Below are positions 943 through 5,359 of a stretch of DNA of 7,017 nucleotides, one piece after another. The notes below the pieces were generated by a model. That model saw nothing but the letters and a program-made list of their open reading frames with translations. It did no database searches and was not told the origin of the DNA. The translations under genes were made by a program, and so were the position numbers. Origin of the DNA: a bacterium (GTDB lineage Bacteria > Desulfobacterota > DSWW01); the NCBI GenBank assembly GCA_030609865.1, contig JAUWSZ010000115.1, forward strand, positions 1-7,017. Direction: 5' to 3'. Position 1 is the first letter of the stretch; each line of letters starts with the position of its first letter.

Positions 943-1004
943 CCTGAGCCCTGTCTGCCGCTAGGCGTCGTAGTAGAGGGCAAACTCCCAGGGATGGGGA
1001 CGGA
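943..1004 (-). repeat. Parental copy of the 62-bp direct repeat (glnA end plus spacer)
   Basis: This is the native counterpart of the orphan copy at 238-299. It comprises the last 44 bp of glnA, including its stop, and 18 bp of the CCTGAGCCCTG-type spacer. The two copies start 705 bp apart and enclose trmL. The coding part is unchanged between copies while the spacer has diverged at three positions. That is compatible with a recent duplication or gene conversion. Confidence 0.85.
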
Positions 1005-2385
1005 TGTCGAGGGCCTGCACCTCGTTCGTCATCTTGTAGGAAATCCAGGTCTCGATCACGTCCTCGGTGAACACGTCCCCCTTGAGCAGGTAGGCATTGT
1101 CGGCTTCGAGCGCATTGAGCACCTCGCGCAGGGTCCCGGGCGTCTGCGGCACCTTGGCCAGTTCCTCGGGGGGAAGATCGTAGATGTCCTTGTCGAGCGA
1201 CTCGCCCGGGTCGATCTTGTTCTGGATGCCATCGAGGGCCGCCATCAGCATGGCGGAGAAGCCCAGGTACGGGTTGCAGGTCGGGTCCGGGCAGCGGAAC
1301 TCGATACGCTTCGACTTGGGCGAGGTGGAGTACATCGGGATGCGGATGGCCGCGCTCCGGTTTCGCCGCGAGTAGGCCAGGTTCACCGGCGCCTCGAACC
1401 CGGGGACGAGCCGCTTGTAGCTGTTCGTGGTCGGGTTCGTAAAGGCGAGCACGGACGGCGCATGCTTCAGGAGGCCGCCGATCGCGTAGAGCGCCATGTC
1501 CGAAAGTCCTGCGTACTTGTCGCCCGCAAACAGGTTCTCCCCGCCCTTCCACAGGGAGAGGTGCGTGTGCATGCCGCTCCCGTTGTCGTTGAAGAGCGGC
1601 TTGGGCATGAACGTCACCGTCTTGTTGTGCTTGCGGGCGGTGTTCTTGATCACGTATTTGTACATGAGCAGTTTGTCCGCCATTTCGACCAGGGGCATGA
1701 AGCGCATATCGATTTCCGCCTGGCCGCCGGTAGCCACTTCGTGATGCTGCGCCTCGACCCTGATGCCCATCTTCTCGAGGGTGAGCACCATCTCGCTGCG
1801 GATGTCCTGCTGGCTGTCCGTCGGCGGAACCGGGAAGTAGCCTTCCTTGTATCGCGGCTTGTAACCGAGGTTCGGGCTTTCCACGCGGCCCGTGTTCCAG
1901 CGCCCCTCCGTCGAATCGATGTGGTAGTAGCCTTCGTGCTCGTTCTGGTCGAAGCGGATGTCATCGAAGATGAAGAACTCGGCTTCAGGCCCGAAATACG
2001 CGGTGTCCGCGAGGCCCAGGCTCTTTACATAGTTCTCCGCCTTTCGGGCGATGTTTCGCGGATCCCGCGTATAGTCCTCGCCCGTGACCGGGTCGCAGAT
2101 GTTGCAGAGTATGGTGAGGGTCTTTGCGGCCAGGAAGGGATCCAGGAAGGCGGTCCCCGGAACAGGCTTGACGAGCATATCGGACTCGTTGATCGCCTGC
2201 CATCCACGGATGCTGGAACCGTCGAACCCGAGGCCCTCTTCGAAGGTTCCTTCTTCGATCTCTCTCGGCGGCACGGAGAAATGCTGCCAGAGACCCGGGA
2301 AATCCATGAAGCGAAGATCCACGATCTCGACATTCTCATCCTCAATGAACTTCACGACGTCTGCCGGGGTTTTGAACTCGCTCAT
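961..2385 (-). CDS. glnA: Glutamine synthetase type I (GSI-beta), adenylylation-controlled
   Basis: This cytosolic enzyme makes glutamine from glutamate, ammonium and ATP and forms dodecamers in this family. The 474 residues fit GSI (E. coli 469). Motifs in order: [10 protein letters not shown] (53-62, N-terminal beta-grasp), [12 protein letters not shown] (131-142, metal-binding Glu), [17 protein letters not shown] (262-278, ATP/ammonium site with His273), [17 protein letters not shown] (317-333, flexible loop with the catalytic Glu), NRSAAIRIP (342-350) and [15 protein letters not shown] (360-374). [11 protein letters not shown] carries Tyr402 in the position of the Tyr adenylylated by GlnE, placing it in the beta subclass. 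No glnE is in the window. The ATG at 2383-2385 is chosen because AAGGAG lies 9 bases upstream and MSEF begins the family alignment. A longer in-frame start at 2451 would run into the sigma-54 promoter. The upstream neighbour glnD feeds the PII/GlnE cascade that controls this enzyme. Confidence 0.98.
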
Positions 2386-2434: not shown

Positions 2435-2450
2435 AGCAATAAGTGTGCCA
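2435..2450 (-). promoter_or_regulatory. Sigma-54 promoter of glnA
   Basis: The minus strand reads TGGCAC-ACTTA-TTGCT, matching the sigma-54 (RpoN) consensus TGGCAC-N5-TTGCW with the invariant GG (-24) and GC (-12) at correct spacing. Counting 12 bases from the C of TTGC puts transcription start near 2424, giving a leader of about 39 nt. Sigma-54 promoters need an ATP-dependent activator bound upstream. Two candidate sites lie at the expected distance (2528-2537, 2559-2568). Control of glnA by RpoN and NtrC is well established in other Proteobacteria. Confidence 0.9.
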
Positions 2451-2527
2451 AAAGGCGAGTTTGAATTAACGAAGCAAAACCAGATTGTTACAGTCACCAG
2501 CCGGTCTTTCTTTCCCGATAGAAAACG

Positions 2528-2537
2528 ACAAAAATGT
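2528..2537 (-). promoter_or_regulatory. Candidate activator site, proximal, upstream of glnA
   Basis: The minus strand reads ACATTTTTGT, an ACA-N4-TGT dyad, inside TGCAACATTTTTGTCG. Its centre is near -108.5 from the predicted sigma-54 start. It is one of three identical boxes in the window, all upstream of sigma-54 promoters. The flanking TGCA resembles one arm of the enterobacterial NtrC site (TGCAC...GTGCA), but the other arm is poor. That an NtrC-type activator binds here is inference. Confidence 0.6.
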
Positions 2538-2558
2538 TGCATCAGAGATCTTCGTCCA

Positions 2559-2568
2559 ACAAAAATGT
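2559..2568 (-). promoter_or_regulatory. Candidate activator site, distal, upstream of glnA
   Basis: This is a second ACATTTTTGT on the minus strand, within AAGCACATTTTTGTTGGA, centred near -139.5. It is exactly 31 bp, about three helical turns, from the proximal box, so two dimers would sit on the same face of the DNA. The GCAC and TTGG arms look somewhat NtrC-like. It begins 11 bases after the glnD stop, so the whole control region fits in the 194-bp glnD-glnA gap. Confidence 0.6.
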
Positions 2569-2579
2569 GCTTTTCTTCT

Positions 2580-5186
2580 CTAAGGATCGCGGCCGTTATG
2601 CAGAACCTGCCCGATTGCATCCTTTATGCCGGCCACGGCCTCTTTGTCGTCCACCTTCTGCCCATCCATGTCGCGGACGTAGAAGATGTCCACGACCTGG
2701 TCGACATCCGTTGCGATCTTGGCGATCAGAACATCCAGATTTCGTCGAAACAGGGCGTTGGTGATCTTGTAGAGAAGCCCCGGGAAGTCGTGGGTATGGA
2801 CCTCGACGATCGTGAAGAAACCGGAGTTCTCGTTGTCCACGACGATCTTGTCCGGCTTCTTCCGACCTGACCTGCGGGTCGGCCTGTACGAGAGAAGCTT
2901 TTCGTCCAGGGCCGCATCGAGGGCCAACGCGCCGGACCGTGCGGCATGCAGATCGTTCCTCAGCTTGCTCCAAAGCTCGTCTTCGCGAAGGCTGTCCCGT
3001 GGAGCCCGAACGGTGAAGATGTCGAGGGCAATTTGGTTTCGCCAGGTGTAGATGTTGGCGTTCAGGATGTCCAGGTTGTTCAGCGTGAGCACGCCTGAAA
3101 TGCTCGAGAAAAGCCCCGGCCGGTCTCTGGCGCACACCGTGGCGGTCCTGAAATATTCTCCCGAGGGTGTGCCGGGATCGATCACGAAGGGGGCGTCACC
3201 GAGCATCTGGTACAGCTCAACGTGACGGACAATGTCCTTGGATGGGGTATAGAGCAAATACCGGGGAGACAGGTTCTCGAAGAGGGCCTCCAGCTTCTCC
3301 CGGGGCATGGAGTGAGCCTGCCGGAACACTTCCTCCCTCTTCTTGTCGACGATCTCCCCTGACGTCTTCGTGGCCAGTTCCCCCTTGCGCAGGATGTGAT
3401 GGACCTTGAAGAAGATCTCCCGCAGGAGTACGTCCGTCCAGGAGTTCCACGCCTTAGGCCCCGTGGCCTTGCAGTCGGCCACGGTCAGGAGGTAGAGCAT
3501 CTTGAGGTCATCGATCTGCCGAAACTTCCCGGCGAACTGCACCACGAGCTTCTCATCCTGGATGTCCCGCTGGGTGGCCGTCTTGACCATCGACAGATGC
3601 TCCCTCACCAGGAAGGAGATCGTGTCGATGTCATCCGAGGGAAAGCCCATCCTCGTGAAGACCCTTCGCGCGATCTCGGCGCCCTGCTCGGAATGGTCCT
3701 CTTCCGGCACGCCCTTGCCCACGTCGTGGAACAGGGCCGCCCACAGGACAAGCTCCGGGTTGGCGATTTCGTCGTAAAGTTGAGGGCAGAGAGGGCCGCC
3801 CTCTTCGGATTTCGGGTCGGCGAGGTCCTTCAGAATCCGCACGGCCAGCAGGGAATGCTTGTCCACCGGATGCACGTGGTATTCGTCGTATTGAATCCGG
3901 TTGACGATCGCCTTCATCTCCGGGACGAGGGCGACCAGGATGCCCGTGTTGAGCATCTCGTTCAGGACGTTGAAGGTCTGGGGCGGCGACACGAGAACCC
4001 GTCGCAGCGACTGGACCACGGTGTCCGAGCTTCGGAAGCCCTCGTCGATCATGGGCAGGCACTTCCGCACGAGGCGTACGGCATCGATCGACAGGGGCAC
4101 GCCCAGCAGGGCGCTCTGCTCGAAGATCTTGATCAGCAGGAGAGGGTTCCCACGAACCGCCTCGGGGGATTCGAAATGCAGGGCGTCATTGAGGATCCGC
4201 AAGCCCTGGATGCGCAAACGGGATATGATCTTCCTTCGGTAGGGCTTCTCTCCCCTGGGCATCACTCTGTTCAGAAAGCTCCGATGGAGGTGCTTGACGA
4301 ACTCCATGTGGCCGTGCATCTCCCCCAGGAACCTCTCCACGGCCTGTTGTCCGTTGGCAGCCTCGAATCCCAGGTCCCCGGCCAGCTTCACCTGATACTC
4401 GAAGTACAGCTGGTCGCACTTCCTTCCCGTGATCTTGTGCAGCCGGTTTCTCACCCTCCAGATGAAGGAAACGGCCTCTGAAAGGCCCTGAAATTCGTCC
4501 CGTGCAAGATGCCCGTTGTCCACGAGTTCACTGACTTGCTTCACACGGTATTTGCACCAGGCGATCCAGCGGATGGCATGGAAGTCCCGCAGTCCCCCAA
4601 GGCCCTCCTTCACGTTCGGTTCCAGAAGGTACGCAGAATCTCCGAACTGGGCGTGACGCTTCTGGCTCGTCTCCACGAGCCATTTCAGCAGCGCGCGACC
4701 ACGCCTCCGGAGCACCTTGTCCTGGATCCCCTCCATGAGATCCGAATACAGAAAGGAGATCCCGCAGAGGAAACGTGCATCGATCATGGACGTAAGCACC
4801 TCGAAATCCTCGGAGGCCAGTCGAGTGCATTCGCGCAGCGAGCGGGTCCCGTAGCCGACCTCGAGACCGATGTCCCACAGGGGGTAGAAGATCTCCTGGA
4901 CGAGTTCTTTTGCCTCCTCCGGCACCCGTTTCTTGAAGAGAAGCAGAACGTCCACGTCGGAGTGGAGGCACTGCTCTTTCCTCCCATAGCCGCCGAGGGC
5001 GATCAACACGCATGGGTTCTTCTCCATGTGCATTCGGGGGCCCACCGAACTCCTGGCGAAGCTATCCTGGAAATAGTCGTCCAGGATCTCAGCGTGCTGA
5101 TCGACGAAGTCGGGCGCACGGCCCTTCATGAATCTGGAAACCAGCGCTTCCCTTTTCTTCTGTAGCTCCTGAACGGGAGAATTCAT
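2580..5186 (-). CDS. glnD: [Protein-PII] uridylyltransferase / uridylyl-removing enzyme GlnD
   Basis: GlnD is the glutamine sensor that uridylylates PII proteins when glutamine is low and removes UMP when it is high, setting GlnE and NtrB activity. The 868 residues match the family (E. coli 890). The nucleotidyltransferase domain has GGYGRKE (66-72) and SDVD (76-79), with catalytic Asp residues. The HD hydrolase domain has HPVDKHS (439-445) and LFHDVGKG (485-492), whose His-Asp pair binds metal for UMP removal. Two ACT domains, for glutamine sensing, start near 681 (CARDRPGLFSSISG) and 791 (VHTHDFPGLLYKITNAL). No key motif is missing. The start is uncertain: ATG at 5184-5186 is preferred, TTG at 5195 adds three residues, and neither has a clear Shine-Dalgarno. 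A sigma-54-like promoter and an activator box lie upstream, and glnA follows 194 bp downstream. No glnB is in the window. Confidence 0.97.
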   Translation of the reverse strand: MNSPVQELQKKREALVSRFMKGRAPDFVDQHAEILDDYFQDSFARSSVGPRMHMEKNPCVLIALGGYGRKEQCLHSDVDVLLLFKKRVPEEAKELVQEIFYPLWDIGLEVGYGTRSLRECTRLASEDFEVLTSMIDARFLCGISFLYSDLMEGIQDKVLRRRGRALLKWLVETSQKRHAQFGDSAYLLEPNVKEGLGGLRDFHAIRWIAWCKYRVKQVSELVDNGHLARDEFQGLSEAVSFIWRVRNRLHKITGRKCDQLYFEYQVKLAGDLGFEAANGQQAVERFLGEMHGHMEFVKHLHRSFLNRVMPRGEKPYRRKIISRLRIQGLRILNDALHFESPEAVRGNPLLLIKIFEQSALLGVPLSIDAVRLVRKCLPMIDEGFRSSDTVVQSLRRVLVSPPQTFNVLNEMLNTGILVALVPEMKAIVNRIQYDEYHVHPVDKHSLLAVRILKDLADPKSEEGGPLCPQLYDEIANPELVLWAALFHDVGKGVPEEDHSEQGAEIARRVFTRMGFPSDDIDTISFLVREHLSMVKTATQRDIQDEKLVVQFAGKFRQIDDLKMLYLLTVADCKATGPKAWNSWTDVLLREIFFKVHHILRKGELATKTSGEIVDKKREEVFRQAHSMPREKLEALFENLSPRYLLYTPSKDIVRHVELYQMLGDAPFVIDPGTPSGEYFRTATVCARDRPGLFSSISGVLTLNNLDILNANIYTWRNQIALDIFTVRAPRDSLREDELWSKLRNDLHAARSGALALDAALDEKLLSYRPTRRSGRKKPDKIVVDNENSGFFTIVEVHTHDFPGLLYKITNALFRRNLDVLIAKIATDVDQVVDIFYVRDMDGQKVDDKEAVAGIKDAIGQVLHNGRDP

Positions 5187-5244
5187 GAGGGTCAACCCAG
5201 GCCGTGAGTGGTTTCATCTCTTGCTTACGGTTTCAATAGAATAG

Positions 5245-5260
5245 AGCAACGCGCATGCCA
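5245..5260 (-). promoter_or_regulatory. Probable sigma-54 promoter of glnD
   Basis: The minus strand reads TGGCAT-GCGCG-TTGCT, with one mismatch to TGGCAC-N5-TTGCW. GG and GC are spaced exactly as in the glnA promoter. The predicted start is near 5234, 48 nt before the glnD ATG. An ACATTTTTGT box identical to those at glnA lies at about -120.5. The shared upstream box raises confidence above that of a lone match. Confidence 0.72.
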
Positions 5261-5281
5261 GAGGCTGGGTCTCGAGAAAAA

Positions 5282-5297
5282 GCTGATAACTATCAGC
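5282..5297. promoter_or_regulatory. 16-bp palindrome upstream of glnD, possible operator
   Basis: GCTGATA-AC-TATCAGC has perfect 7-bp arms around a 2-base centre. It is centred about 55 bases before the predicted sigma-54 start and between the activator box and the promoter. The symmetry suits a dimeric DNA-binding protein. It does not resemble the ACATTTTTGT box, so a second regulator is possible. No T-tract follows, so it is not a terminator. Confidence 0.45.
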
Positions 5298-5349
5298 CAG
5301 ATAGGCAGACAAGGTTCGATCGATTGTCGCAACCCTCAATACCTTTGAT

Positions 5350-5359
5350 ACAAAAATGT
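5350..5359 (-). promoter_or_regulatory. Candidate activator site upstream of glnD
   Basis: This is the third exact ACATTTTTGT in the window, here within the 12-bp dyad TACATTTTTGTA. It is centred near -120.5 from the predicted glnD start, which suits a sigma-54 enhancer. Just downstream is TATCAAAGGTATTG, which loosely resembles an IHF site (WATCAA-N4-TTR) but has one extra base in the spacer. IHF often bends such promoters. That part is weak. Confidence 0.55.

Follow-up and report, generated by a model that had tools for sequence, protein, structure and literature searches.

A conserved box ahead of the sigma-54 promoters of glnA and glnD in a member of the Desulfobacterota points to a common nitrogen enhancer and a candidate NifA-like activator

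We analysed a 7,017-base stretch of contig JAUWSZ010000115.1 (assembly GCA_030609865.1; Desulfobacterota, DSWW01), hereafter the window, in which the glutamine synthetase gene glnA and the PII uridylyltransferase gene glnD are both preceded by the same 10-bp box, ACATTTTTGT, and by a sigma-54-type promoter element. The question raised by this locus is whether a single activator drives both genes and, if so, to which family that activator belongs. We regard it as highly probable that the boxes are a nitrogen enhancer common to glnA and glnD and favour, with considerably less assurance, a NifA-like one-component protein of the GAF-AAA+-Fis type as the protein that binds them. The features on which the argument is built are the following:

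961..2385, minus strand: glnA, type I glutamine synthetase (TIGR00653, 682.4 bits, above the cut-off; start placed by eye at ATGAGCGAG)
2435..2450, minus strand: sigma-54 -24/-12 element of glnA, TGGCACACTTATTGCT (perfect match; aligned in L001, L002 and G003)
2478..2490, minus strand: weak IHF-like site, two mismatches to the consensus, 27 bp upstream of the glnA -24 element
2528..2537, minus strand: putative proximal enhancer box of glnA, ACATTTTTGT (GCAACATTTTTGTCG), centre placed at -108.5, 31 bp from the distal box
2559..2568, minus strand: putative distal enhancer box of glnA, ACATTTTTGT (GCACATTTTTGTTGG), centre placed at -139.5
2580..5186, minus strand: glnD, PII uridylyltransferase, 868 amino acids (TIGR01693, 633.9 bits, above the cut-off)
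5245..5260, minus strand: sigma-54 -24/-12 element of glnD, TGGCATGCGCGTTGCT (perfect match; aligned in L001 and L002)
5350..5359, minus strand: putative enhancer box of glnD, TACATTTTTGTA, centre placed at -120.5

The three boxes are the only exact copies of ACATTTTTGT in the window, as a preliminary description of this DNA had stated; 0.01 copies were expected, and at least three were found in none of 200 shuffled sequences. With up to one mismatch allowed, the sigma-54 consensus TGGCAYNNNNNTTGCW has two matches in the window, both perfect, one before glnA and one before glnD (0.30 expected; at least two in 9 of 200 shuffles), and thus each box does stand ahead of one of the only two such elements, two boxes at glnA and one at glnD. 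The same two elements match TGGCAY-N5-TTGCW perfectly, and those of the relatives match it with no or one mismatch. The distance of 108-140 bp originally given between boxes and promoters is correct when counted to the inferred start site, placed 26 bases downstream of the sigma-54 element's first T, and incorrect as the gap between box and -24 element, which is 108 and 77 bp at glnA and 89 bp at glnD. The shorter pattern ACA-N4-TGT also occurs three times in the window (0.78 expected; at least three in 4 of 200 shuffles), its only copy before glnD being the one at 5350..5359. The boxes are AC-N6-GT dyads. Two known sites were rejected for the window: the NtrC dyad GCAC-N7-GTGC showed no enrichment (28 matches with up to two mismatches vs 33.7 expected, one two-mismatch match at 2556-2570 overlapping the distal glnA box), and the canonical NifA site TGT-N10-ACA had no match in the window.

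A scan of genome contigs for GlnD led to two relatives, L001 (from a Syntrophobacteria metagenome-assembled genome; GlnD 90%) and L002 (GlnD 81%). In both, the glnA boxes are 31 bp apart and lie 77 and 108 bp from the sigma-54 element, exactly as in the window, and the glnD box lies 88-89 bp from its element. At glnA of a further genome, G003 (locus L113), a pair of boxes 31 bp apart stands 75 bp from the -24 element, and boxes and element are kept there despite a different upstream gene. The distal glnA box reads ACACTTTTGT in L001, ACAATTATGT in L002 and ACAAATTTGT in G003, the proximal one ACATTTTTGT, ACGTTTTTGT (one mismatch) and ACATATTTGT, respectively, and the glnD box TACATTTCTGTA in L001 and TACAATTCTGTG in L002; the glnA sigma-54 elements of L001 and L002 have one mismatch each. 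In the alignments, boxes and elements rank with the best-conserved segments, though other blocks are conserved as well, e.g. CTTTTTCTCGA at glnD. Exact copies of the 10-mer are few in the two related genomes searched: one in G001 (3.8 Mb), at glnA, and three in G002 (8.9 Mb; two matches of the reversed control), none of them at glnA or glnD. Because the relatives vary the letters, mostly keeping ACA-N4-TGT, and because the three exact copies in G002 lie elsewhere, the 10-mer itself was rejected as the functional unit. Neither of the results that the preliminary description named as refuting was obtained: the exact box is not frequent in these two genomes, and orthologous upstream regions retain the site, as the dyad and not letter for letter. 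Between the glnD box and its sigma-54 element, at 5282-5297, there is also a near-perfect palindrome, GCTGATAGTTATCAGC, with a similar sequence in L001 and none in L002, which is possibly the site of a second regulator.

Since distant GlnD loci carried the same box pair, we screened 395 genomes from the phylum, without specifying any gene, for a sigma-54 element with two ACA-N4-TGT boxes, a pattern drawn up after loci from the same phylum had been seen. It was found 35 times, in 31 genomes, and the reversed pattern was not found at all; five of the 35 matches had been seen beforehand (glnA of G001 and glnD of G038, G275, G295 and G105). The gene downstream was glutamine synthetase in 12 cases, an amtB/PII operon in eight, glnD in six and gltB in two; the remainder comprised a porin-like family (three), genes of no assigned function (three) and a contig end without a readable gene. 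Core nitrogen-assimilation genes thus stand behind 28 of the 34 readable promoters, or 23 of 29 when the five already seen are left out, and the expectation that the box would be enriched at nitrogen genes was borne out by the presence of amtB, PII and gltB among the targets. In L114 and L129 the first gene has no assigned function and amtB comes next. Over 36 distinct promoters (these 35 and the window, some of them from close relatives, such as L124-L127, and so not all independent), the spacing within the pair is 29-32 bp, and exactly 31 in 20 of them, where 26-36 was allowed; the gap from pair to element is 74-82 bp in 32 and 68-69 in four, where 68-88 was allowed. Judged from sequence, the box represents one form of the dyad ACA-N4-TGT, which mostly works as a phased pair with a spacing of about 31 bp and positions near -108 and -140.

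A looser pattern, one box and a sigma-54 element, was searched in 15 chosen genomes and gave 25 matches in 13 of them (reversed control, one); in G001 it matched twice, at the promoters of glnD and glnA. Eighteen of the 25 precede a nitrogen gene (glnD 11, glnA 3, amtB 2, PII 1, nifH 1), with downstream genes read partly by eye and a set that overlaps the box-pair search. The other seven comprise a porin-like gene, a class-II-amidotransferase-looking gene, three unrelated-looking frames and two cases without a readable frame.

IHF-like sites with no more than one mismatch to the consensus are present in 15 of the 36 promoters vs 4.3 expected, and 200 shuffle rounds gave nine at most. Thirteen of the 15 lie 27-30 bp before the sigma-54 element, and the other strand has three vs 3.4 expected. 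The glnA site of L001 has one mismatch, that of L002 shows no mismatch by eye, and the copy in the window, with its two mismatches, is a poor match.

Several observations were made alongside these searches. The porin-like family, whose genes follow a sigma-54 promoter with a box pair in three genomes (L109:16311-17105, L118:8074-8856 and L123:9180-9941; weak Gcw_chp match in one scanned member), is a candidate nitrogen-regulated outer-membrane protein. Variant boxes, e.g. TCGACAATAATGTCGA, precede an uncharacterised protein of 102-109 amino acids in G306 and G342 (L131:4315-4800 and L132:8632-9118). The NifA-like orthologue described below is not found in these two genomes, and perhaps another activator uses a related code there. 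In G071 (L106:9965-10731), glnD is matched by three disjoint segments that follow a boxed fragment of amtB, and the gene looks broken.

Which protein reads this code? The activators found in or near the nitrogen clusters of L122, L128, L133 and L138 (the last without a strict box pair) are by eye not response regulators and form a group of their own that lacks a receiver domain. One orthologous protein is shared by G002, G003, G135, G275, G315 and G210, with mutual identities of 62-87% (the G002 and G003 copies are 78% identical to that of G135), and the protein of G115 (L128) is 54-57% identical to these six. This NifA-like protein scores 536.8 bits with TIGR01817, just above the cut-off of 528.85; five of six proteins exceeded the cut-off and the sixth (L133:10396-11877) fell below it. 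In the three proteins scanned with Pfam, GAF, sigma-54 activation and Fis helix-turn-helix (HTH_8) domains were found and no receiver, and among solved structures the best match is to a Nif-specific regulatory protein. The sub-threshold protein, in G128, is a second, more distant NifA-like activator located between glutamine synthetase and PII-amtB.

The NifA-like gene adjoins PII and glnE in G002, and PII in G003, with glnE on the same contig; the 1266-aa neighbour, considered as a glutamate dehydrogenase, was rejected as such since Pfam shows GlnE. In G135 the genes downstream of the NifA-like gene are amtB, PII (a frame identified by eye) and glnD, and the amtB promoter has a sigma-54 element and one box. 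A nitrogen gene was present within 1.5 kb at 11 of the 30 best NifA-like loci, a set that includes four close relatives (L165-L168), vs none of 30 loci of TIGR01818 (NtrC) hits, a set drawn from six genomes only, with two overlapping loci and three without a script-recognised activator frame. NifA-like matches at E<=1e-120 were present in 247 of the 395 genomes; of the 31 genomes with boxes, 27 have one (Fisher p = 0.003). Boxes occur in 20 of the 38 top-scoring NifA-like genomes vs 11 of the 357 others (p = 8e-16), and in 18 of 35 when G135, G002, G003 and G001 are left out (p = 8e-15), in statistics that ignore kinship and with a 38-genome cut chosen after the list had been seen. The gene neighbourhood and the co-occurrence are the reasons for which we favour a NifA-family one-component activator.

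The search around nitrogenase genes adds to this picture. Among 35 genomes chosen for a NifA-like gene or for boxes, only five have nifD above its cut-off, and therefore the NifA-like protein is mostly not nif-specific. The stretches around nifD were examined in those five, and in three of them nifH could be read with its upstream DNA. In G038, the nifH promoter region (L207:6035-6236) has three ACA-N4-TGT boxes exactly 30 bp apart, a number reached in 2 of 20,000 base shuffles, and then a perfect sigma-54 element, with no TGT-N10-ACA. This supports nifH of G038 as a NifA-type target with the ACA-N4-TGT code and would favour a NifA-type binder.

A number of points weigh against this assignment. 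The co-occurrence counts are uncorrected for kinship and depend on a cut made with the list in view. Nineteen of the 30 NifA-like loci have no nitrogen gene within 1.5 kb. Upstream of nifH, G368 has neither ACA-N4-TGT nor TGT-N10-ACA, and G295 (L203 near 10512, with a NifA-like gene on the same contig) has one of each. In Desulfovibrio, the response regulator DVU3220 binds DNA upstream of amtB-PII-glnD in an electrophoretic mobility shift assay and is called the likely nitrogen regulator there (PMC3333781). It should also be noted that the candidates come from related genomes of the phylum rather than from the window's own genome, and that four box genomes, G001, G071, G306 and G342, have no NifA-like orthologue. 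Among them G001 is the closest relative searched (GlnD 90%); as glnE, the neighbour of the NifA-like gene in G002, is missing from G001 too, an assembly gap is the likely explanation there.

In enterobacteria, the sigma-54 promoter of glnA, glnAp2, is preceded by two NtrC enhancer sites near -108 and -140, separated by about 31-32 bp, and the glnA boxes of the window, at -108.5 and -139.5, occupy these same positions. The same nitrogen enhancer might be bound, as in enterobacteria, by a phosphorylated NtrC-type response regulator, either DVU3220-like or a diverged NtrC, which we consider rather unlikely. The DVU3220 binding just described speaks for it, as does the listing of NtrC regulation for deltaproteobacteria in a comparison of proteobacteria (PMC5343134), and all six genomes searched hold many receiver-bearing activators. 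At a looser cut the best-scoring NtrC-type response regulator, to which alone the co-occurrence counts for this alternative refer, is also somewhat commoner with boxes (13 of its 68 best genomes, p = 6e-4). However, the 54-85 TIGR01818 matches per genome in these six include none above the cut-off, the 30 loci of such hits lack a nitrogen gene within 1.5 kb as reported above, and the window shows no enrichment of the NtrC dyad. That response regulator is accompanied by boxes in only 5 of its 38 best genomes vs 26 of the 357 others (p = 0.2), and at E<=1e-130 it was detected in 14 of the 31 genomes with boxes, G003 not being among them. This protein (the L071-L074 group) was rejected as the binder, having no nitrogen gene in its 1.5-kb flanks and weak co-occurrence. 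The preliminary description had left a choice between a lineage-specific NtrC motif and a different enhancer-binding protein; the former is now the less likely, and neighbourhood and co-occurrence speak for the latter. The activator is probably not classical NtrC.

Two other explanations were considered. As an AT-rich short dyad the box resembles many repressor operators, and six of the 34 readable box-pair targets are not known nitrogen genes, so that the boxes might be sites for a repressor or nucleoid protein, or belong to another regulon of which glnA and glnD are members by coincidence. We consider this very improbable, given that 28 of the 34 targets are nitrogen-assimilation genes and that the boxes keep enhancer distance and helical phasing before sigma-54 elements in 31 genomes (with the element built into the search pattern). 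Chance repetition in AT-rich intergenic DNA could draw on ACA-N4-TGT alone, which is not very rare in the window, but it was rejected and can practically be dismissed in view of the 10-mer excess, the spacing kept in relatives and the 35 vs 0 matches of the phylum search and its control. Of the original claims, those that chance hardly explains the boxes, that glnA and glnD have an enhancer box in common and a single activator, that relatives conserve the box and that it is enriched at nitrogen genes are supported, at the level of sequence.

If a NifA-like protein is indeed the activator, the system may operate as follows. The enhancer-binding protein, responding to nitrogen status, would sit as dimers on the phased boxes, at two sites three helical turns apart at glnA and at one site at glnD, and the DNA would loop, probably with the help of IHF, onto RNA polymerase-sigma54 waiting at the -24/-12 elements. 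The ATPase of the activator would then open the sigma-54 complex, and glnA and glnD would be fired together under nitrogen limitation. The GAF domain may read nitrogen status through PII, by analogy with NifA, whose GAF domains are reported to respond to GlnB or 2-oxoglutarate (PMC9866876). As GlnD uridylylates PII, it would influence the very activator that drives glnD, in a feedback loop. For the NifA-like protein, we infer the binding, the activation, the coupling to PII and the feedback. A broader proposition, which we advance tentatively and hold to be somewhat doubtful, is that across much of the phylum a NifA-family one-component activator took over the master role of NtrC in ammonium assimilation, with its own ACA-N4-TGT code, IHF-assisted looping, glnD in the regulon (and hence self-reinforcing nitrogen sensing) and nifH reached in diazotrophs. 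If true, the nif role of NifA would be one specialisation of a general nitrogen regulator.

The remainder of the window has the following content. Its minus-strand genes are metK (C-terminal part), a fructose-6-phosphate aldolase-type gene, glnD, glnA and a TrmL-like tRNA methyltransferase gene, the TrmL match scoring below its curated cut-off. A 73-nt direct repeat, 89% identical, at 238-310 and 943-1015, flanks the stretch with the trmL-like gene; the second copy covers the 3' end of glnA, where it looks like a partial duplication or an insertion. The end of an open frame on the plus strand (3-239) is PIN-domain-like by eye, without a Pfam match.

Compared with NtrC at enterobacterial glnAp2, the glnA sites of the window are likewise paired near -108 and -140, and glnD has one site. 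The two systems differ in the box (ACA-N4-TGT vs TGCACYA-N3-TRGTGCA), in the candidate activator, which here lacks a receiver domain, and in glnD being a target, whereas enterobacterial glnD is not usually listed in the NtrC regulon. The likeness to NifA at nif promoters lies in a GAF-AAA+-Fis activator above the TIGR01817 cut-off, in upstream sites together with an IHF-like site before a sigma-54 promoter (the role of IHF is treated in PMC9866876) and in nifH of G038 itself, with its three ACA-N4-TGT boxes. Unlike the situation at nif promoters, the NifA site TGT-N10-ACA is absent from the window and from nifH of G038 and G368, occurring once in G295, and most targets here are ammonium-assimilation genes. 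Nlh1 and Nlh2 of Aquifex are likewise described, in PMC9866876, as GAF-bearing NifA-like activators, and the N-terminal part of the candidate shows similarity to the nlh1/nlh2 structures.

A close parallel by description is DVU1949 of Desulfovibrio, a single-component sigma-54 activator of nitrogen genes, as proposed here, with predicted control of nine nitrogen-metabolism operons including DVU1231-DVU1233 (Kazakov et al. 2015, PMC4641369); DVU1231-1234 form the operon of ammonium transporter, PII and uridylyltransferase (PMC3333781). DVU1949 is co-transcribed with iorAB (PMC4641369). A nitrogen-metabolism regulon is among four kept in most species of Desulfovibrio's order, with the regulator not named in that part of the article (PMC4641369), and glnB-glnA of Geobacter has a mapped sigma-54 promoter (PMC2725144). 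Because DVU1949 and DVU3220 of Desulfovibrio, the Geobacter promoter and deltaproteobacterial NtrC regulation have been described, this is not a new kind of system. A literature search by title and start of abstract found no publication describing this box; as supplementary files and the RegPrecise motifs behind PMC5343134 fell outside its scope, we do not claim the motif as unpublished. What seems new, as far as the comparison of sequences goes, is the box code, the recurrence of its phased pair over a broad span of genomes, the direct targeting of glnD in this lineage and the likely binding by a NifA-family protein. The outcome is an enhancer code for nitrogen assimilation that is concrete enough to be searched for in a large phylum of bacteria. 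It allows regulon members to be predicted in metagenome-assembled genomes and sets a testable alternative against the view that glnA is everywhere under NtrC; if the boxes are indeed bound by the NifA-like protein, this would also have a bearing on the way in which NifA and NtrC came to split their functions.

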